Shown: positions 6,915-31,666 of the stretch, piece by piece
How the letters are laid out: every line of letters begins with the position of its first letter
Numbering within the stretch: position 1 is the first letter of the stretch
Notes under the pieces: generated by a model
Database searches by the model: none
What the model saw: the letters and a program-made list of their open reading frames with translations, nothing else
What the model was told of the DNA's origin: nothing
Origin: Myxococcales bacterium
GTDB lineage: Bacteria; Myxococcota_A; Polyangia; Polyangiales; Polyangiaceae
Assembly (NCBI GenBank): GCA_013297655.1
Contig: JAAFHV010000046.1
Span: 7,190 to 43,359, forward strand
Length of the DNA: 36,170 bases
Reading direction: 5' to 3'
Program-made: the position numbers and the translations under genes

Positions 6915-8651
6915 TCAGCCGCCATCGGCGCCGGCGTCCCCCACGGGAGCGCCCGAGGGGCAGTTGTAGGCGCCCACGACCGTCTTGGCGGATGCGTTGA
7001 AATATTTGTCGGTGGAGAAGAACGAGGGCCCCGCCCCTCCGACGCCACGCTGCACGCACCAAATCTCGACGTCCGCAGGAGACTCGCCTGCGTCGTCGAA
7101 GTTGAGCGGGCTCGACGCGCCGGCGAGGTCGAAGTCGGTTCCGGACGCGAAGAGCGGGCGTGCTTGGTCGATCCCGTTCGGCCCTACTTCGATGCTCTTC
7201 CCCCCTTCCTTCGCGAGGCGGCGCACCCCGGTGGCGATCGCTTGTCCGTCGATCTTGTCGGTCGGGACGAAACCGAGCGCGTACAGGATGAGGTAGGCCG
7301 CGTCGTAGGCGCCCGCCGTACCGAAGCTGCCGACCTCGTTCGCGATCCTCGGATCAGGAAACGTGGACGTGAACCGGAGGGTGTACGAAGAAGTGATCGC
7401 GGTGGGACGCCCCGGCGCCGTGCCGCGAATGCGGTTGCGGAGCGGGCTCGGATTGCTCGTGGCGTCGTCCGCCTTGATGAGATCGAGGAGGCTCGCGCTC
7501 TTGAGGCCATCGCTCACGACAAAAACGGGCCGCGTCTTGCCTGCCGGCCACTGCGCCTCGAGCGGCTTCACCAGCTTCTCGACGCCCTCGTTCGTGCCGG
7601 CGATGACGATGATTTGCGGCTCGAACGCGATCGTCTCGGCGATGCGCTGGGAGAAATCGAACGTCGCCTCCGTGCCATACTCGAGCCCCTTGTAGGTCGC
7701 CGGGACGCCGATCGCGACGTTGTTGAGCGTCAGGTTCACGGCGAGCTGGTCGCGGAGGCCCTGCCCGTAGCTGTCGCCCTTACTGATGAAGACGAGCTTC
7801 TTCGTGCCCGTGGGGAGGGCCTTCTCGACGTCGCCGATCGCGGCCGCGAGCGGGATCGCCTGGAGGGCGTCGCTCGGCGCGGTGCGGAAGAAGAGCCCCT
7901 TTTTGTTCGGGTTCGACGTGAGCGCGGGGCTCGTCGCGCTGGGAGCGATGAGGACCGAGCCCTTCGCCGTGATCTCCACCAGCGCAGAGGTGGTCGTGCC
8001 GCTGTTGCCCGCGCCAACGACGGCCGGCACACCGACCGCCATGAGGTGCTTCGCCGACCGAACGACGGCGGGATCACCACCCGCGCCGGCGTCGGCGCCG
8101 ACCTGCTCCGTGTCGGTGCACGACAAGAACGCGAGCGGGCGGGTCCGGCCCGCGATCGGCAACGGGCGCGCCGAGAACTCTTGCAAGGCGAGCTGGAAGG
8201 CGGCGACACGCGCCTCGCCCTTCGTCTGGTTCGTGCCGTAGAGCGACGCGAGCGAGCCGAGCACGATCGTGTCGTCGGCCTCGACCGCGCGCCGATCGGT
8301 GACGACCTGACCGCCGGATGCGACCGAGAGAACGCTCGGGCAATCGGCGTTCGTGAGCCTAACGCAAACCTTCGTATCTTTTCGGCAAATTGCCGGCGCG
8401 CCGCCTTCGCGATCGATGCACTCGGTGTTGGTGGTGCAGCTCCCGCCGCCTTTCGTGACGCAGACGCCGTCCGCGGTGCAGCGCGCCCCGGGCCCGAACG
8501 CGTTCGTGCACGTCGCGGTGTCGTCAGGTCCGGCACACTGGGTTTCGCCACGCGTGACGAGGAAAGAGCAGGCGAGCAGCCCGCTCGCCGCCGCCAACAC
8601 CGCGCCCACCACGAGCCCACGCTTGAGGTCGCGGTTCGTTCGAATGTTCAT
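6915..8651 (-). CDS. Lipoprotein with Cys-rich N-terminal segment and periplasmic binding protein (type 1, branched-chain amino-acid type) domain
   Basis: About 578 residues. It starts MNIRTNRDLKRG, with signal peptide and lipobox LLAC; the ATG at 8651 follows GGGGAGCGCGGC, a better start than one 33 bases upstream. Residues ~30-95 carry about ten cysteines in short loops (for example CTADGVC, CTTNTEC). From ~105 onward the sequence looks like a LivJ/ANF-receptor-like fold: VLGSLASLYG, VPAVVGAGNSGTTTSAL, VLIAPSATSPAL, KLVFISKGDSYGQGL, IIVIAGTNEG. Such proteins bind small ligands outside the membrane. No ABC permease genes are adjacent; instead it lies 89 bases downstream of kinase 1 and its TPR/PEGA partner, suggesting a sensory rather than a transport role. 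Confidence 0.8.
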   Translation of the reverse strand: MNIRTNRDLKRGLVVGAVLAAASGLLACSFLVTRGETQCAGPDDTATCTNAFGPGARCTADGVCVTKGGGSCTTNTECIDREGGAPAICRKDTKVCVRLTNADCPSVLSVASGGQVVTDRRAVEADDTIVLGSLASLYGTNQTKGEARVAAFQLALQEFSARPLPIAGRTRPLAFLSCTDTEQVGADAGAGGDPAVVRSAKHLMAVGVPAVVGAGNSGTTTSALVEITAKGSVLIAPSATSPALTSNPNKKGLFFRTAPSDALQAIPLAAAIGDVEKALPTGTKKLVFISKGDSYGQGLRDQLAVNLTLNNVAIGVPATYKGLEYGTEATFDFSQRIAETIAFEPQIIVIAGTNEGVEKLVKPLEAQWPAGKTRPVFVVSDGLKSASLLDLIKADDATSNPSPLRNRIRGTAPGRPTAITSSYTLRFTSTFPDPRIANEVGSFGTAGAYDAAYLILYALGFVPTDKIDGQAIATGVRRLAKEGGKSIEVGPNGIDQARPLFASGTDFDLAGASSPLNFDDAGESPADVEIWCVQRGVGGAGPSFFSTDKYFNASAKTVVGAYNCPSGAPVGDAGADGG

Positions 8652-8740
8652 GCCGCGCTCCCCACGGTCGTTTGGCATAGGCACACCGCTCGCCGGCGGC
8701 TCACTTGAGTGTTCATCCCCACACCTCCAAAAAAGCCAAT

Positions 8741-9709
8741 CTAGAAAGAGCCCATCAGCACGCCGCCGCCGAGCGACGGCACGAGCTTGAGGCTCGATTT
8801 CGCCGTGCCGCTGCCCTTCTCGGGCCCGTCGGTGAGCGTGCGGATCGTGAGGTACGTGCCGACACCCGCCGCCACGATCGTGGCGCCGAGGAAAATGTCC
8901 GTCACGATCGCGAACGTGCCCACGTTGCTGTCGAGCGACTTGAGGTTCGCCGGATCCGCGTCCGGCTTCGCCTTCGCCTCGGCGAGGGAGCTCTCTTTGC
9001 CCGTCGTGAGGATGCCGAAGACGACGGTGCCGACAGCGAGGCCGCCTGCGACCGCGAACGCCACGACCGGCGGGGTCCAGTTGCGCTCGACCTCGGGCGC
9101 GGTGCCTCGTGCGGGCGCGGGGCTCGAGCCGGGCTTCAGCTTGACCTCGACCGTCTTCACGTCGCCACCGCCGATTTCGACGGTCTCGTTCGCGCGATCG
9201 TAGCCGCTCTCGGTGACCTCGATTTTGTGGCCGCCCGGGTTGAGCTTGATCCCATCGGTCTTCGTGACCGCCTCGCCGTCGACGGTGACCTTCGCCCCAG
9301 CCGGCTCCACCTTCACGGTAAGGAGGCCGACCCGACCCTTCAGCTTCGCGATCTCGGTGAGCACCTCACCGCGCCGCTCGTCCTTCACCTGCGCGCCGCC
9401 GTCGGCGAGGAACCGCTCGAACGACGAGAGCGCCCCGACGTAGTTCGTGAGCTGGTACTCGCACTGAGCGATGTTGTAGAGCACCCGGTAGTCGTGGTTG
9501 CTCGCGTCGTACGCGCGCTTGAACTCGACGAGGGCGGCGCGGAAGTCGGCCTCCTTGTAGAAGTCCACGCCGCGCTTGAAGAGCGTGTTCACTTGGTCCG
9601 ACGTGTCGGCACGGGCAGGTTCGGCGTAAGCGACGGAAGCTGCGGCGATGGCCAGCGCGATCCCGCACGCGCGAGACACGCGCGCGACGGACGGAAAGCT
9701 TCGACTCAT
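8741..9709 (-). CDS. TPR/PEGA-domain membrane protein (module 1 partner of kinase 1)
   Basis: 322 residues. The signal peptide ends near AYAEPARA. TPR-like helices lie at ~38-110 (FKRGVDFYKEADFRAALVEF; VLYNIAQCEYQLTNYVGALS). A PEGA domain lies at ~128-195 (LLTVKVEPAGAKVTVDGEA...GGHKIEVTESGYD). Two hydrophobic segments follow at ~215-240 and ~265-290, separated by a charged loop. PEGA domains are surface-associated beta-sandwich modules common in myxobacteria. The ATG overlaps the TGA of the kinase gene as ATGA, so the two are translationally coupled and probably work together. Architecture matches the TPR proteins at 23311 and 28811. Function is inferred: an envelope sensor or scaffold for the kinase. 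Confidence 0.8.
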   Translation of the reverse strand: MSRSFPSVARVSRACGIALAIAAASVAYAEPARADTSDQVNTLFKRGVDFYKEADFRAALVEFKRAYDASNHDYRVLYNIAQCEYQLTNYVGALSSFERFLADGGAQVKDERRGEVLTEIAKLKGRVGLLTVKVEPAGAKVTVDGEAVTKTDGIKLNPGGHKIEVTESGYDRANETVEIGGGDVKTVEVKLKPGSSPAPARGTAPEVERNWTPPVVAFAVAGGLAVGTVVFGILTTGKESSLAEAKAKPDADPANLKSLDSNVGTFAIVTDIFLGATIVAAGVGTYLTIRTLTDGPEKGSGTAKSSLKLVPSLGGGVLMGSF

Positions 9710-11541
9710 TTAAGAACCTCGATGATGGGACGGTCGGGCCGCTTCGGGCCCGTGGACGGCGGCGGCTGAGTAGCGGATGGCGGCGGAGGGGCAGCGCTCG
9801 GCGGCGGCGGGGCAGCGGCGGCGGGCTGCGTCTTCGGGGGCGTGTAGCCGGTGTGGTGGCCCCCTTGGTGCGGGGCGGCGGTGACGGTGGGCGTGGTGAC
9901 GACCGCCGCTTCGGCGACGAGGGCGAGCGAGATGCGCTGATCCTTGTCGAGGCGGATGGTCTCGTTGTGGTCCTTGTAGCCCTCCGCGCGGACGCGCAAG
10001 GTGTGGTCGGCGCTGTCCTTGGAGAAGCGAATGGGGCTCCCGACGGAGACCTCGCGACCATCGACGAACGCGGTCGGACGGGCCGGTCCGGCCGCGACTT
10101 GCACCTCGAGGCGAACGTCTTCCGCGACGGCGGCGGAGGGCTCCGGCTTGCCCGCCGCGCCCGTGTCTTTGCCGCGGAACGCGAGCGCCAAGGCGCCCAC
10201 GAGGAGCACGACGAGCGCGGCGCCGACCATGCCGATCTTCGCGATCGGCGAGATCCCGGGCGGGGGCATCGGCGCGGGGATGCTCGGAACGTGACCGGAG
10301 CCGGTGTAGGTGGAATGCGGCCCCATCACCGGTGCCACGAACGGCGCCGAGGTAGACGGCGTGAGCGTGCCCGGCGACGACGCCTCGCTCGCGAGCGGGA
10401 ACGAGCTGATCGACGGCTGTGACGGCGTGCCCGAGTGCGGGGCGAGCGACATCGTGTGCCCGGCGGTGGAGTGCGGGGTGAGCGCCGACATCGCGCCGCT
10501 CGACGTGAGCCCGAGCATCGCGGGGTACTCCGCCGTGCTCGAGGCCACGCGCACCTGACGGATCGCCTCGTCGACGACCTTGCGCCGCTTGTCGCGCTCG
10601 ACCCCGAAGTGGCGATTCAACAAATCGGCGAGCGAGCGCGCGCTCGTCTCGGAGCGCGGGAGGGTGTCGACGAAGGCCTCGAGCTCGTTCGCAAACTCGC
10701 GCGCGGTCTCGTAGCGGTTCTCTTTTTCCGCGGCGGTCGCTTTCGCGACGATGCGACGAAGCTCTGGCGCGATCGGCACCCCGTCGACCGCGTCGGGGAG
10801 CTGAGGGATCTCGCGACGAACGAGCTGCGCGAGCACCTGCACGTCGGTCATCGAGCCCCACATGCGGCCGCCGACGATGGCTTCCCACACGAGGACGCCG
10901 ACCGGGAAAATGTCGGCGCGGCGGTCGAGGTTCTCGCAGCGCGCCTGCTCCGGCGCCATGTACCCCACCTTGCCCTTGAGGACTCCGGTGCTGGTTTGGT
11001 GCTGCGAGCCTTTGGATTTTGCGATGCCGAAGTCGAGCAGCTTCGCGTGACCGTCGTACGAGACCATCACGTTGTGCGGAGACACGTCGCGGTGCACGAG
11101 GTGGAGCGGCGTGCCGTCGTGGTCCGTCATCTCGTGCGCGTAGTGGAGGCCCTCGAGCACGTCGACGACGAGGCGGAGGTGAGCGCCGAGGGAGAGCGCG
11201 CCGTTCTCTTGGAGGCGCTTGCGGACGATGCGGAGCGGCTGACCGTCCACGAAGTCCATCGCGATGTAGAAGTGCTCGTCCTGCACCCCGAGCTCGTGCG
11301 TCTGGACGACGTTCGGGTGGTTCAAGTTCGCGGCGATGCGCGCTTCGTCGCGGAACATCGCGAGGAACTCCTGGTCCTCCGCGAACTCGGGCTTCAGCAC
11401 CTTGAGGACGACGAGCTTGTTGAAGTTGCCGGCGCCGTTGACGAGGGCAAGGTACGCGTTGCCCATGCCTCCTCGCGCGACGAGCGCGATGGGCCGGTAC
11501 TTTCCGAGGGTTCGGGGCAGAGCAGTGGTGGACAAGAGCAC
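9706..11541 (-). CDS. Membrane Ser/Thr protein kinase with extracytoplasmic PEGA domain (kinase 1)
   Basis: 611 residues from the GTG at 11541, which places the kinase fold 12 residues from the start; upstream GTGs exist, so the start is uncertain. The Hanks-type kinase domain shows RGGMGNAYL (Gly-rich loop), K47, HRDVSPHN (150-157), DFG (170-172) and APE (196-198), all intact, so active kinase is expected. A Ser/Thr/Pro-rich juxtamembrane stretch follows, one transmembrane helix at ~433-455, a PEGA domain at ~475-545, and a Pro/Ala-rich tail. The kinase end faces the cytoplasm and PEGA the periplasm. It is first gene of an operon with the TPR/PEGA protein (ATGA overlap) and the binding-protein lipoprotein. 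Confidence 0.92.
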   Translation of the reverse strand: MLLSTTALPRTLGKYRPIALVARGGMGNAYLALVNGAGNFNKLVVLKVLKPEFAEDQEFLAMFRDEARIAANLNHPNVVQTHELGVQDEHFYIAMDFVDGQPLRIVRKRLQENGALSLGAHLRLVVDVLEGLHYAHEMTDHDGTPLHLVHRDVSPHNVMVSYDGHAKLLDFGIAKSKGSQHQTSTGVLKGKVGYMAPEQARCENLDRRADIFPVGVLVWEAIVGGRMWGSMTDVQVLAQLVRREIPQLPDAVDGVPIAPELRRIVAKATAAEKENRYETAREFANELEAFVDTLPRSETSARSLADLLNRHFGVERDKRRKVVDEAIRQVRVASSTAEYPAMLGLTSSGAMSALTPHSTAGHTMSLAPHSGTPSQPSISSFPLASEASSPGTLTPSTSAPFVAPVMGPHSTYTGSGHVPSIPAPMPPPGISPIAKIGMVGAALVVLLVGALALAFRGKDTGAAGKPEPSAAVAEDVRLEVQVAAGPARPTAFVDGREVSVGSPIRFSKDSADHTLRVRAEGYKDHNETIRLDKDQRISLALVAEAAVVTTPTVTAAPHQGGHHTGYTPPKTQPAAAAPPPPSAAPPPPSATQPPPSTGPKRPDRPIIEVLK

Positions 11542-19806: not shown

Positions 19807-21353
19807 GCGCGCTCGTCCACACGCTCGCGCAGATCGGCGCGCGGTCCCCGTCCAAGACCGCGATCGTCGACGGCGCTCGTGTGGTCTCGTACGCCGCGCT
19901 GCTCGCAAAGATCGCGCGCGCGACGCGCTTCCTCGTCCACGAGCAGTCCGTGCGCGCGGGCGACCGGGTGGCGAGCGTGGTGGCGAGCGGAGAAGACACG
20001 ATCGTGCTTCTTTTTGCCTGCGCCGCGATCGGCGCGACGTTCGTCCCGTTGAACACGCGCCTCGCGCCGGGGGAGGTCGCGGCGCTCGTGCACACATGCC
20101 GCCCGCGGCTCGTGCTCGGCGACACGGGCGGCCTCGGGATCGGCGCGGGGATCTCGCTTCCTCCGTCGCTCGGGGAAGACGCGTCGTGGCCCGTGTCCCC
20201 GAGCTACGCCGCGAGCGCGAGCGTCACTCGTTCCGATGCGCCCGCGGTGCTGCTCTTCACCTCCGGCAGCACCGGCGCACCGAAGGGCGTGTGCATCACC
20301 GAAGCGCAGATCGTGGCGAACGCGCGCGCGACGAAGGACGCGTGGGACCTCTCCGACCGCGACGTCACGGTGAACGCGGCGCCGATGTTCCACGCCGGGG
20401 GCCTCTTCGTGCTCACGTTGCCGCTCTTGCTCGCTGGCGGCACGGTCGTCACGATGTCTCGCTTCGACGAGTCCGCGTGGGCCGCGCTCTCGGCCTCCCA
20501 CGGCGCGACGATCGGCTTCGGCGTACCGACGATGCTCGAGCGCCTCGCGCGCGATCCCTCGTTCGACGCGATCGCGCGCACGTCGCGCTTGTGGGTCTCC
20601 GGCGGCGCGCCCTGCCCTCCTTCCGTGTTCGCGGCGTTCCGCGAGAAGGGCGTGCGCCTCATCGCCGGCTTCGGGATGACGGAGGTGGGGCCGAACTGTT
20701 TCCAACCGGTCGACGGGATGGACGAAGCTTCGGTGGGCGTGCCCTCTGCGGGGCTCGTCGCGACCCTGGTGACCGACGGGCAGGCGCTCGATCCGAACGC
20801 GGACGGCACCGGCGAGCTCTGGCTCGCGGGCCCGCAGGTCGCGGCGGGATACTTCGAGCGCGACGACGAGACACGGGCCACGTTCGTCGGCGGCGCGGTT
20901 CGCACAGGTGACGTATTTACCCGCAAAAAAGGCCTCTATTTCGTCACCGGCCGCGTGAAGGACATGTACATCTCGGGCGGCGAGAACGTCTACGCGGGCG
21001 AGGTCGAGCGGGTGCTCGCGCTTCACCCCGCGGTGCTCGAGGCCGCGATCGTGGGTGTGCCCGATGCCACGTGGGGCGAGGTCGGCCACGCGTTCGTCGT
21101 CAGCCGAACCGTGCTCGACGAGGCCGAGGTCCGCGCGTTCGTCCGCGAACGTCTCGCGGCGTACAAAGTCCCGAAGCGGGTGTTCACCCTCGACGCGCTC
21201 CCGCGGACCGCGTCAGGCAAGGTCGCAAAGGGCGCGCTGCCGACACGCGCTCCACTCGTGCAACCGCCGGCCTGCGGCACCGACTTCCAACCGCCGGCCC
21301 GCGGCACCGACTTCCAAGGGTCGTCCCTCGTCAGGGACTTCCCAGGGTCGTGA
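19803..21353 (+). CDS. AMP-forming acyl-CoA synthetase (fatty-acid/carboxylate-CoA ligase) with repeat-derived C-terminus
   Basis: 516 residues of the ANL superfamily. The ATG overlaps the porin-like gene stop. Motifs: [14 protein letters not shown] (phosphate-binding loop), [10 protein letters not shown] (adenine/acyl region), [23 protein letters not shown] (hinge) and [11 protein letters not shown], whose Lys at about 473 is the acylation catalyst. The enzyme activates a carboxylic acid with ATP and CoA in the cytoplasm, the expected last step after uptake. Residues 487-516 are not family sequence: 27-base tandem repeats encode [30 protein letters not shown], the last from the dispersed repeat also seen at 6653 and 6849. 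Acyl specificity is not readable. Confidence 0.92.
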
Positions 21354-24306: not shown

Positions 24307-25742
24307 CCTCCTACCGCGTCCTCAACAAGGTCGCATCTGGCGGAAATGCCACGGTTTTTCGCGCACGAGCGGAGAGCGCGCTCGGAGTAACTCGCCTCGT
24401 CGCGCTGAAGAAACCGCACCCGCACTTGCTCGACGATCCCGAGATCGCGGACGCGTTTCGGCGCGAGGCGAGCATCTCGGTGCGCCTCCGTCACCCGAAC
24501 GTGGTGCAGGTGTTCGACGTCGTGGAGCACGAGGGCTCGCCGTCGCTCGTGCTCGAGCTCGTCGACGGCATGACCCTGTCGGAGCTCGTGCGAGCGCAGG
24601 TGCGGGCGAGCGACGACGCGCGCACGGTCCCCGCCGCGCTCAGGATCGTGATCGACGCCGCGCGAGGCCTCCACGCACTCCACGAAGCGACGGGCGACGA
24701 CGGCGCGCCGCTCGGGCTCCTTCATCGCGACGTGTCGCCGCAAAACGTGCTCCTCGATCGCTCGGGGGCCGTAAAGCTGTCCGATTTTGGCCTCGTGAAG
24801 GCGATGCTCGGCAAAGATCCGGCGACGACGGAGGGCATCCTCAAGGGCAAGGTCGGTTACCTCGCCCCCGAGTACGTGCGCGGCGAGCCCCTCGATCGAC
24901 GGAGCGACGTGTTCGCGCTTGGCGTCGTCGCGTGGGAGGCGCTCGCGAAGAAGCGGCTCTTCCGCGCCGAGCGCGAGACCGAGGTCCTCGAGAAGATCCG
25001 CACGATGCCGATTCCATCGCTCCGTGACGCCATCGGCGATCTCGCGACGGTCTTCGATCCCATCGTCGCGAAGGCCCTCGCCCGTGACGTGGCCGCGCGC
25101 TTCGCGACCGCGAAAGACCTCGCCGATGCGCTCGAACGCGTCGCCGCGAGCGAGAGAATCGCAGCCACCTCCGACGCCGTCGCGGCGGTCGTCGCGCGCG
25201 CCACCACCGCGGGAGCGAGCGTTCCGCCTCCACAGCTCGCGTCACCGAGCACACCGCCCCCGCCGAACGACACGCCGACAGTGACCGAGGTCCGCGCGGT
25301 GAGCGACGCACCGAGCGCGACGTGGATCGCGCCGACACGCGACACCGAGGTGGTGGCCTTGGAGCCGTCGCCCGCGCCCCCGCCCCCGTCGACCGTACCA
25401 GCCCGCGCTCCGCGGCACGTCCCGCGCCCGGCAGCGGTCGGACTCGGGCTCGTCCTCGTCGGAGGGGCCGCCCTCGTGCTCGCGGCGACGCGGTTCTTCG
25501 GCGGCTACGCGCGCGCGCCCGCGGCCGTGCCGCCCGCCACGACCGACGCGGGCTCGCCCACGGACACGAGCAGCGCATCACCGTCGGTCGCGCTACCTCC
25601 GGCGGGGATCGTGAAGACCGCCGCGCCCCTACCGCTGCCGTCGAGCTCGGCCAAGGTCCCTAAGTTTCCCGCCCCGAAGCTCCCGCCGAGCGCGACCCCC
25701 GCCGCCTCCAGCGGACCACGCCCGAACCCGTACGTGCGCTGA
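24303..25742 (+). CDS. Membrane Ser/Thr protein kinase (kinase 2)
   Basis: 479 residues. The Hanks-type domain starts at once: VASGGNATVF loop, K36, HRDVSPQN (141-148), DFG (161-163), LKGKVGYLAPE. All catalytic residues are present; the glycine loop is S-G-G-N rather than G-x-G-x-x-G. After ~270 comes a Pro/Thr-rich cytoplasmic linker, one transmembrane helix (about 378-400: VGLGLVLVGGAALVLAA), and a short Pro/Ser-rich outer tail ending RPNPYVR. The very similar ending PPNPYAH occurs in kinase 3. The ATG overlaps the TPR gene stop. It is convergent with the FHA activator of module 3, 29 bases apart. Likely targets are Thr residues recognised by the nearby FHA proteins (inference). Confidence 0.92.
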   Translation: MTSYRVLNKVASGGNATVFRARAESALGVTRLVALKKPHPHLLDDPEIADAFRREASISVRLRHPNVVQVFDVVEHEGSPSLVLELVDGMTLSELVRAQVRASDDARTVPAALRIVIDAARGLHALHEATGDDGAPLGLLHRDVSPQNVLLDRSGAVKLSDFGLVKAMLGKDPATTEGILKGKVGYLAPEYVRGEPLDRRSDVFALGVVAWEALAKKRLFRAERETEVLEKIRTMPIPSLRDAIGDLATVFDPIVAKALARDVAARFATAKDLADALERVAASERIAATSDAVAAVVARATTAGASVPPPQLASPSTPPPPNDTPTVTEVRAVSDAPSATWIAPTRDTEVVALEPSPAPPPPSTVPARAPRHVPRPAAVGLGLVLVGGAALVLAATRFFGGYARAPAAVPPATTDAGSPTDTSSASPSVALPPAGIVKTAAPLPLPSSSAKVPKFPAPKLPPSATPAASSGPRPNPYVR

Positions 25743-27223: not shown

Positions 27224-28795
27224 TCAGTGCGCGTACGGGTTCGGCGGCGGGCTCCCGGGTTTCCCCGTTTTGTCGGCGGAGGGCTTCACCACCGGGACGT
27301 GCTTCGGTGCGGTCACGGGGAGAGGACCGGAGACGCTCGCGACGGACGCCGATACCGTGGCCGGCGCAGGCGGGGCGGGCGGCGCAGGCGCGACCGAGAC
27401 CACGATCTTCGCTGTGGCGGCGGAGGGCGCGGCAGCGGGGACGGCAGCGGGCCCGCGGCGTGAAGCGACGAGCACCACGCACGCGATCACGACCGCGAGC
27501 GCAGGAACACCGAGCCCTACGCTCCAGAAGAGCGCGCCCCGCGGCCGCGGGATCGACGCACGATCGAGCGTCGAGAGGGAGAGCGAGTCGTGGGTGACCA
27601 CCTCCGCGACTGCGATCGGACGCGAGGCGCCTCCGCTCTTCGGGCCGGTGCCCTCCATGAGCTCGACGGGCCCATCTTCCCTCAGCGTCGCGCCGAGGTC
27701 GGGGCCAGGGGCGAGCCCGCGGGGGCCTTCGGGATCACGAATGGTCGCGGGCGAGAGCGAGAGCGGCGCGGGCGCGGGGGCCCCCTTCGCGCCCTCGAAC
27801 AGGCTCGCCAACGAAGGCTCATGGGCCATCTTTTCGCGAATCTTTTCGCGACGTAGCGCCAGATCGGGACCAAACAGAGTCCGGACCAGCGCGCCCACGT
27901 CGCTCGGGCTCGCGGACAGGCCCGCCGAGCGCGCGGACGACTCGAGCGCCGCCGCCATCGCCGCCGCCGAGCCGAACCGATGTTGACGATCTTTCGCGAG
28001 CGCAGCTTCGAGGACGGCGTCGAGGCAACGCGCCGCCGGCACGAGGGACGAGACCGGCGCGGCCTCTTGCCCCAGCACGCGCTGCATCGTGTCGACGTCG
28101 TGGCTTCCGCGAAACAGGCGCACCGCGGTGAGCGACTCCCACAGAACGACGCCCATCGCGAACACGTCGAGGCCTCGATCGATAGGCTCGTTGCGCAGGT
28201 ACTCCGGCGCCATGTAGGCGATCTTGCCCTTGAGCTGACCCACCGTGGTCGAGTGGTCCTTCTTGTGGAACTTCGCGACGCCGAAATCGACGACCCGCGC
28301 GTGGCCGTCGACCCCGACGAGGATGTTCTGCGGGGACACGTCGCGGTGAACGAGCCCCACGTGCCTGCCGCGATCGTCGCAGAGCTCGTGCGCGGCGTGG
28401 AGACCCGCGAGGGCGTCGACGCAGATGCGCACCGCGATCGCCGGATCGAGCCTCTTTCCCTCGGATTGCAGGCGTGTGAGCAGCTCCGAGAGCGACGCGC
28501 CCTCGATGTAGTCCATGACCAGCGAAACGTCGTCGCCGAGCACCTCGACGTCGCGCACGTCGACCACGTTGGCGTGATGGATCGACGACGCAAGCTGCGC
28601 CTCGGCGAGCAGCTCCGCGCGGAAGTCGGCGTGCTCGACGAGGTGGGGATGGGGCTTCTTGATCGCGACGAGCTGACGGAACCCGAGCCCCCCGCGAACC
28701 GTGCCGACCCACACCGACGCCATGCCACCTTGCGCGAGCTTGAGCAGCGTCGCGTAGCGGGAGGTGGGCGGGGTAGGCACGACGGCCTGGCTCAT
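27224..28795 (-). CDS. Membrane Ser/Thr protein kinase (kinase 3)
   Basis: 523 residues. Hanks-type domain: LAQGGMASVWVG loop, K46 within VAIKKPHPHL (kinase 2 has VALKKPHPHL), HRDVSPQN (150-157), DFG (170-172), LKGKIAYMAPE. All catalytic residues are intact. The region ~275-425 is a linker with an LFGPDLALRREKIREKMAHEPSLASLFEG helix segment. A transmembrane helix follows near 430-452 (WSVGLGVPALAVVIACVVLV), then a Pro/Ala/Val-rich outer tail ending PPNPYAH. The gene lies 15 bases after the TPR partner gene. Closest in-window relative is kinase 2. Confidence 0.92.
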   Translation of the reverse strand: MSQAVVPTPPTSRYATLLKLAQGGMASVWVGTVRGGLGFRQLVAIKKPHPHLVEHADFRAELLAEAQLASSIHHANVVDVRDVEVLGDDVSLVMDYIEGASLSELLTRLQSEGKRLDPAIAVRICVDALAGLHAAHELCDDRGRHVGLVHRDVSPQNILVGVDGHARVVDFGVAKFHKKDHSTTVGQLKGKIAYMAPEYLRNEPIDRGLDVFAMGVVLWESLTAVRLFRGSHDVDTMQRVLGQEAAPVSSLVPAARCLDAVLEAALAKDRQHRFGSAAAMAAALESSARSAGLSASPSDVGALVRTLFGPDLALRREKIREKMAHEPSLASLFEGAKGAPAPAPLSLSPATIRDPEGPRGLAPGPDLGATLREDGPVELMEGTGPKSGGASRPIAVAEVVTHDSLSLSTLDRASIPRPRGALFWSVGLGVPALAVVIACVVLVASRRGPAAVPAAAPSAATAKIVVSVAPAPPAPPAPATVSASVASVSGPLPVTAPKHVPVVKPSADKTGKPGSPPPNPYAH

Positions 28796-30541: not shown

Positions 30542-31666
30542 GTGAGTCGACGCGCGCTCCTCGCCCCGTTTGTCATCGTCGCGGCCTGCTCGCTGCGGAA
30601 CGGCGCGAGGAACGAGGCCCCCCCGACGGTCGCCACACGCGCCGGCGAACCGAGCGGCACGAGCACGTCCGCGCGCGAGCACACCGACGCGAGCCTCGAA
30701 GGCGGCGCGGTCGCGTCCACGATCCCCTCCGACGCGGACGCCGGAGCGCCGGCGCAGGCCGCCCCCGCCGACACGTCGCCCCTCCACAAATCGACGCGAG
30801 AGGACCTCCTCGGGCTCTTCACGACGAAAGCCCTCACCGACGAAGAGAAGGCGCGCATCCTCCCCGAGCGCTTCTTGAACGGCGTGTTCGGGGTCGGCAC
30901 CCCTGCCAAGATTCACCAAGGGAATCAGGCCATTGCCCTGCACGAAATCTCGCGCGCCGCCTGCTTGAAGGGCCTCGAAGGCGTCACCCTCCAATCGGCC
31001 GACCAGCGAAAAGCGTGCGGCCACGAGAACATGGTCCCGGTGCACCTCCGCGGCAAGGATCCGTACTTCTGCATCGACGTGTTCGAGTTCCCGAACAAGC
31101 CCTGCGAGCTCCCCTTCGTGTGGACGTCGCCTTCGTACGCGAAGAAGGTCTGCGAGCTCCAAGGCAAGCGGCTCTGCTCGCAAATCGAGTGGCAGCTCGC
31201 GTGCCACGCCGATCCGAACGACGGCCCGGACACGCGCTACGCCTACGGCGACACCCTCGATCTCGACGTCTGCCACACGAAACGAAGGCACCGCCAGGTA
31301 GCCGAAAAGCCCTGCACCAGCACCGACGCGCAGACGACCTACCGCACCTGCAGCACCGACACCGAGCCCTCCGGCTCGTTCCCCAAGTGCCGCTCGCGCT
31401 ACGGCGTCTACGATCTGCACGGCAACGTCGCCGAGATCATGATGAGGCGCGACGCCGACGGGAGCGTGAAGAGCCAGCTCAAGGGCAGCGCGTGGTTTTA
31501 CGACGAGGTCGCGCGCGAGGTGGGCGGCCCGCCGCTCCACGAAAATGCGCAGGGTGCTTACCCGGACCACTGCAATTTCGATCCACGCTGGCACGTCGAG
31601 AACATCGAGAACGCGTGGCACGTGAACTACCACCTCGGCTTTCGCTGCTGCAAAAGCATCCCCTAA
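30542..31666 (+). CDS. Lipoprotein with formylglycine-generating-enzyme (SUMF1/FGE-sulfatase) fold
   Basis: 374 residues from a GTG start with signal peptide and lipobox VAAC, then a Thr/Ala/Asp-rich linker to ~85. The domain at ~160-374 has SUMF1 hallmarks: YFCIDVFEFPNKPCELPFVWTS-like entry, AKKVCELQGKRLCSQIEWQLAC, RYAYGDT, RYGVYDLHGNVAEIM and the ending HLGFRCC. The C-x4-C copper-binding pair that catalyses formylglycine formation in true FGE is not seen in the expected region before GFRCC, so this is probably a non-FGE member of the fold (binding or other oxidation role). It follows the module 3 lipoprotein gene by 168 bases and could be part of the same envelope system. Confidence 0.82.
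   Translation: MSRRALLAPFVIVAACSLRNGARNEAPPTVATRAGEPSGTSTSAREHTDASLEGGAVASTIPSDADAGAPAQAAPADTSPLHKSTREDLLGLFTTKALTDEEKARILPERFLNGVFGVGTPAKIHQGNQAIALHEISRAACLKGLEGVTLQSADQRKACGHENMVPVHLRGKDPYFCIDVFEFPNKPCELPFVWTSPSYAKKVCELQGKRLCSQIEWQLACHADPNDGPDTRYAYGDTLDLDVCHTKRRHRQVAEKPCTSTDAQTTYRTCSTDTEPSGSFPKCRSRYGVYDLHGNVAEIMMRRDADGSVKSQLKGSAWFYDEVAREVGGPPLHENAQGAYPDHCNFDPRWHVENIENAWHVNYHLGFRCCKSIP

Follow-up and report, generated by a model that had tools for sequence, protein, structure and literature searches.

A putative amino-acid receptor encoded by a linked Ser/Thr kinase, TPR/PEGA protein and Venus-flytrap lipoprotein in a myxobacterial genome

Three neighboring genes in the stretch of DNA analyzed here probably encode a transmembrane receptor, in which a lipoprotein is the sensor, a TPR/PEGA protein is the go-between, and a Ser/Thr kinase signals into the cell. 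The stretch (the window, 36,170 nucleotides, contig label G000:C401) comes from a draft genome of 9.9 Mb, and the related genomes belong to Polyangia/Myxococcota. The computed basis of this reading is the gene anatomy, the predicted fold, the pocket residues, the conserved linkage of the genes, the lack of permease linkage, and gene fusions in relatives. From these we infer the ligand class, the inner-membrane topology, the contact among the three proteins, and the sign of regulation. In the periplasm, the Venus-flytrap domain of the lipoprotein would close around its ligand, an alpha-amino acid or some other molecule whose amino-acid backbone is free. The closed lipoprotein would be read by the inner-membrane TPR/PEGA protein and/or by the periplasmic PEGA domain and tail of the kinase, and this reading would make the Ser/Thr kinase domain in the cytoplasm more or less active.

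All three genes are on the minus strand, in the order kinase (9706-11541), TPR/PEGA protein (8741-9709), and lipoprotein (6915-8651). The kinase stop and the TPR/PEGA start overlap as ATGA at 9709-9706, and the lipoprotein ATG lies about 90 bases past the TPR/PEGA stop. Given the overlap and the short gap, the three genes are likely one operon. A promoter and terminator scan gave nothing usable. The original prediction named the same three genes and the ATGA overlap, and the open reading frames (ORFs) and Pfam matches confirm all three. The set also lacks an FHA activator, as predicted; the nearest FHA-sigma54 activators are at 21071 and 25772. The features of the locus are as follows.

9706..11541, minus strand: kinase 1 coding sequence (Pfam Pkinase 4.6e-33, 115 bits; PEGA 1.2e-7)
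10630..11502, minus strand: kinase catalytic domain (Pfam Pkinase; alignment of relatives' kinases)
10177..10239, minus strand: single transmembrane (TM) helix of kinase 1, about aa 435-455, from sequence, GMVGAALVVLLVGALALAF
9919..10101, minus strand: PEGA domain of kinase 1, aa 481-541 (Pfam PEGA 32.0 bits, cut-off 20.8)
8741..9709, minus strand: TPR/PEGA partner coding sequence (Pfam PEGA 33.4 bits; TPR matches weak and below cut-off)
6915..8651, minus strand: binding-protein lipoprotein coding sequence, ATG at 8651, 578 aa (Pfam ANF_receptor 41.4 bits, 1.2e-10, cut-off 25.4)
8568..8651, minus strand: lipoprotein signal peptide with lipobox LLA-C28, from sequence
8340..8537, minus strand: Cys-rich N-terminal domain, residues 39-104 (pLDDT mostly 74-95)
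6972..8276, minus strand: type-I periplasmic-binding (Venus-flytrap) domain (structure matches, profile search)
7509..8003, minus strand: candidate amino-acid-backbone residues S217, S238, T240, Y295, and D381 (alignment with E. coli LivJ)

Kinase 1 has an N-terminal Ser/Thr kinase domain, one TM helix, a PEGA domain, and a Pro-rich C-terminal tail that ends RPIIEVLK. Its start codon is uncertain (GTG at 11541, with the frame open to 11643). The catalytic K47, the HRD at 150-152, N157, and the DFG at 170-172 are invariant in an alignment of 15 kinases, and nearly all of the relatives' kinases have a hydrophobic segment at the position of the TM helix. The kinase's own PEGA domain had been predicted and scores well above its Pfam cut-off; we place it in the periplasm by inference. 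A match to the PASTA kinases (PknB/Stk1; NCBIfam 226.5 bits) is confined to the kinase domain and falls below the cut-off of 450, and the Pfam scan of kinase 1 found neither PASTA repeats nor a TPR domain.

The TPR/PEGA partner consists of a signal peptide, TPR helices, a PEGA domain, and two long hydrophobic helices, and is conserved in 15 relatives. Its AlphaFold2 model (pLDDT 77.6) has helices at 36-126, a beta domain at 128-190, and helices at 213-247 and 253-293. A periplasmic adaptor anchored in the inner membrane would be the natural reading of a modeled TPR block followed by a PEGA beta domain and two hydrophobic helices. A periplasmic C-terminal tail of the form (I/L)DxxDP(W/Y) or NPY is conserved in kinases that have a TPR/PEGA partner (L038-L132 and modules 2 and 3 of the window). 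Among kinases whose gene is directly followed by a TPR/PEGA gene, 16 of 28 have the motif P[WYF] within their last eight residues (e.g., RPIDTENPWQ). The same is true of 5/40 other unfused kinases, and for four of those five a TPR/PEGA gene lies elsewhere at the locus. The Fisher p for this enrichment is 1.2e-4, with the motif chosen post hoc and relatedness ignored. The kinases of modules 2 and 3 end NPYVR and NPYAH (C-termini at 25728-25742 and 27227-27241). The tail of kinase 1 differs from the class found in most TPR/PEGA-linked kinases, a point against the receptor reading; its RPIIEVLK ending is like that of some kinases in other Myxococcota operons. That the kinase tail docks in the TPR groove is offered only as a hypothesis.

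The lipoprotein carries a type-I periplasmic-binding domain, as the original prediction had it. The predicted model has a mean pLDDT of 88.7 with 53 homologues, the Cys-rich part included. The closest solved structures are LivK (3td9, Z 33.8), LivJ (4gnr, Z 32.7), and Atu2422 (3ip5, Z 32.5), followed by AmiC (Z 29) and the mGlu ectodomains (Z about 28). A profile of the lipoprotein family finds the LivJ-type protein 4gnr at an E-value of 5e-32. The protein has 13 cysteines. Ten of these, starting with the lipobox Cys, fall within residues 28-104, in agreement with the roughly ten N-terminal cysteines noted before. The lipobox Cys is kept in 56/57 core homologues, and C72, C78, C89, C96, and C104 are kept in most core homologues and in 14/14 homologues that are fused to a kinase (see below). 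The Cys-rich domain has no Pfam family above cut-off; EB, Dickkopf_N, and DUF7107 were considered as known families and set aside, each match being sub-threshold.

Mapping of the pocket was by sequence alignment to E. coli LivJ, as opposed to structural superposition, and pairs S79 with S217, A100 with S238, T102 with T240, Y150 with Y295, and E226 with D381, an Asp where LivJ has a Glu. In LivJ, S79, T102, Y150, and E226 are residues that hold the backbone of the ligand. The equivalent positions are conserved in 53/54 (S217), 51/54 (T240), 47/54 (Y295), and 49/54 (D381) family members. Mean column identity across the family alignment is 28%, and the pocket positions are among the best-kept columns in the stand-alone lipoproteins. 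The position of the LivJ side-chain residue Y202 is variable in the family. Kept backbone residues together with a variable side-chain position favor an alpha-amino-acid-like ligand, with no particular side chain indicated.

The trio had been described as a divergent version of a set that recurs in modules 2 and 3. This holds for the kinase and TPR component types, but not for the lipoprotein, which has no related counterpart there. The kinases of the three modules are paralogues (34-40% identity), and the TPR protein of module 3 is a distant relative of the TPR/PEGA protein (27%, 9e-8). A scan for lipoboxes found no gene-supported Cys-containing lipoprotein beside module 2. Beside module 3, the sole Cys-containing candidate was an FGE-sulfatase-like protein (30542-31666, plus strand, 15 Cys), which has no similarity to the binding lipoprotein. 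The lipoprotein as an altered copy of a module 2 or 3 Cys-rich lipoprotein was thus rejected. Nor is it supported that the lipoprotein "gained" a binding domain, as had been supposed; the binding and Cys-rich domains together are the conserved core of its family.

Homologues of the lipoprotein were found in 33/59 related genomes, with up to 12 copies per genome, and 79 named loci of a genome collection contain them. The strong homologues are from Myxococcota (including Polyangium, Labilithrix, and Byssovorax) or from delta/proteobacterial MAGs. Linkage was assessed at 39 non-redundant, close, unfused loci with enough flanking sequence (i.e., not at a contig edge), with limits of 2.5 kb for a kinase and 1 kb for a TPR/PEGA gene. 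A kinase is near the lipoprotein homologue at 29 of these loci, and a kinase plus a TPR/PEGA gene at 22; neither partner is within the limits at 10. Some loci have the trio in co-directional order and others in convergent order. Two cultivable Polyangium strains, sp. 6x1 and y55x31 (L130, L132), are among the carriers of the trio. Compared with the genome densities of kinase and TPR/PEGA genes, rough binomial p values are 5e-12 (kinase) and 5e-21 (TPR/PEGA); these are approximate and overstate significance because the loci are related. The relatives hold about 25-35 kinase candidates per Mb, and part of the kinase linkage is background because myxobacterial genomes are rich in kinases. For TPR/PEGA genes, a few per cent of loci would be expected to have one within 1 kb, vs. 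22/39 observed. In relatives, the three genes lie together far more often than expected by chance, and background is a very unlikely explanation of this. Several loci (L060, L117, L118, L123, L134, L141, L147) have paired adjacent binding-protein genes, possibly encoding hetero-dimeric sensors. Upstream of the Myxococcus/Pyxidicoccus homologues (L156, L169, L172, L174), at about 480-555 bp, lies a TPR/PEGA-like gene, with no kinase within 4 kb of them.

In 14 homologues, kinase, TM helix, Cys-rich domain, and binding domain are in a single ORF (L062, L063, L064, L066, L067, L068, L071, L072, L076, L084, L085, L089, L090, L096; mostly genome G010). Pfam confirmed the kinase in 12/12 fused ORFs scanned; Pfam matches to the binding domain are weak or absent, and this domain was assigned by match to the lipoprotein family itself. 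The fused proteins form one clade (support 100), which also takes in two rows truncated at contig ends. The tree places this clade among the lipoproteins, from which the fusions are derived. The window's own genome has a complete kinase-TM-ANF_receptor ORF of a more distant subtype (G000:C542). A further frame with TM, Cys-rich, and binding domains is cut by a contig end (G000:C291) and is placed in the fused clade. Fusion of a sensor gene to a kinase gene is good evidence that the two parts work together. The fused homologues keep 8/8 cysteines checked, while the lipobox is lost and the amino-acid pocket is mostly lost. With such altered pockets, the fused proteins may sense other ligands or use the domain only as a scaffold, a point against the amino-acid-receptor reading. 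FHA-sigma54 activator genes are within 3 kb of about 5/16 kinase-binding-domain fusions (L063, L072, L078, L083, L062), including two in the window's own genome, and are a candidate output from kinase to transcription.

The fold and pocket of the lipoprotein are those of LIV-type import proteins, and the draft genome has two BPD_transp_2 permease genes (its only ones), both on other contigs. The lipoprotein could on these grounds be an orphan ABC importer subunit that feeds a LivHM-type permease encoded elsewhere, its adjacency to the kinase being due to chance or co-regulation. We consider this improbable. A LivH/M permease is beside the lipoprotein homologue at 0/39 close unfused loci, although distant actinobacterial homologues do have adjacent permeases, which indicates that the linkage test is able to detect them. 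Permease calls rest on Pfam PF02653, which matches in 16/17 genomes and never beside an unfused lipoprotein gene; at one fused locus (G014), Pfam places a permease on the opposite strand at a distance of about 2.7 kb, which a profile seeded from one ORF missed. One genome (G023) has the trio and no PF02653 match anywhere, and the binding domain is fused to kinases in relatives. The original prediction held that the binding protein serves signaling rather than import, unless relatives link it to permeases. That linkage is absent, both at the 39 loci and by whole-genome PF02653 positions, and sensing is therefore favored over import; the kinase-binding-protein fusions support the same conclusion.

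A similarly small probability is given to a purely structural use of the fold, as a ligand-free protein-interaction piece through which the kinase responds to the state of the envelope. LpoA-type activators of penicillin-binding proteins pair TPR with a binding-protein fold, which the trio resembles, and the loss of pocket residues in the fused relatives would also fit. The lipoprotein, however, has no match to the LppC/LpoA family (the Pfam scan lists only ANF_receptor and Peripla_BP_6), and conservation of 47-53/54 at the LivJ pocket positions of stand-alone lipoproteins, against the low mean identity, argues against this reading. Least probable, in our view, is that the system comprises only the kinase and the TPR/PEGA protein, next to a lipoprotein with a role of its own (e.g., scavenging), the association being a by-product of kinase-rich genomes. 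The kinase density of the relatives and the 10 loci that lack both partners are consistent with this, but the excess of TPR/PEGA genes within 1 kb and the 14 sensor-kinase fusions speak against it.

The receptor we propose has parallels among known systems. For the GlnH-GlnX-PknG system of Actinobacteria, the proposal is that a Ser/Thr kinase is controlled by a binding lipoprotein, which signals and does not import (PMC6069109). There, too, the gene of an amino-acid-binding lipoprotein is linked to those of a Ser/Thr kinase and of a membrane protein that mediates between the two, and a TPR element is involved (PMC6069109). The membrane protein GlnX has four-helix bundles in the periplasm, whereas the partner in the window has TPR, PEGA, and two hydrophobic helices. 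PknG is a soluble kinase with its own TPR, whereas the kinase in the window spans the membrane, has a PEGA domain, and has its TPR in a separate partner. The closest known folds of the window lipoprotein are LivJ/LivK, which also sets it apart from that system. Single-chain SBP-kinases, actinobacterial MSMEG_1200/StpK7 and others, exist as well (PMC6069109). They resemble the 14 fused relatives and G000:C542 in joining kinase and binding domain in one polypeptide, but in the window the three components are encoded by separate genes, the fused relatives add a Cys-rich domain, and the NCBIfam StpK7 score (154.8) is far below the cut-off of 900. Membrane topology, partner proteins, Cys-rich domain, and taxon differ from both actinobacterial systems. 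The lipoprotein shares its fold and backbone-binding residues with LivJ/LivK of the LIV type (HAAT), but differs in the lack of permease linkage, the N-terminal Cys-rich domain, and the conserved C178, C532, and C564. AmiC and the class C GPCRs (mGlu, CaSR) likewise use the type-I Venus-flytrap fold for signaling. AmiC is cytoplasmic and class C GPCRs signal through G proteins, while the output of the window system is a bacterial Ser/Thr kinase. We found no description of the trio in myxobacteria in the open-access literature.

A broader scenario is speculative and, on balance, doubtful: in Polyangia, modular receptor Ser/Thr kinases gated by amino acids may have arisen and grown into a large family. 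Each would combine three proteins: the kinase, a Venus-flytrap lipoprotein with a Cys-rich domain, and a membrane TPR/PEGA adaptor that holds a conserved C-terminal kinase tail in its TPR groove. Sensor-kinase fusions would then have given single-chain receptors with pockets diversified to new ligands, like the ectodomains of class C GPCRs.

What switches bacterial Ser/Thr kinases on has been called an outstanding question (PMC6069109), and the kinase sets of myxobacteria are among the largest known (PMC2887360). The input of one kinase class is now testable, through a soluble sensor domain with a recognizable amino-acid pocket and conserved partners, and the natural fusions point to which kinase the sensor talks to. 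The host is a soil myxobacterium. Some of its relatives make the binding protein and the kinase as a single polypeptide, and this speaks for sensing over nutrient import.
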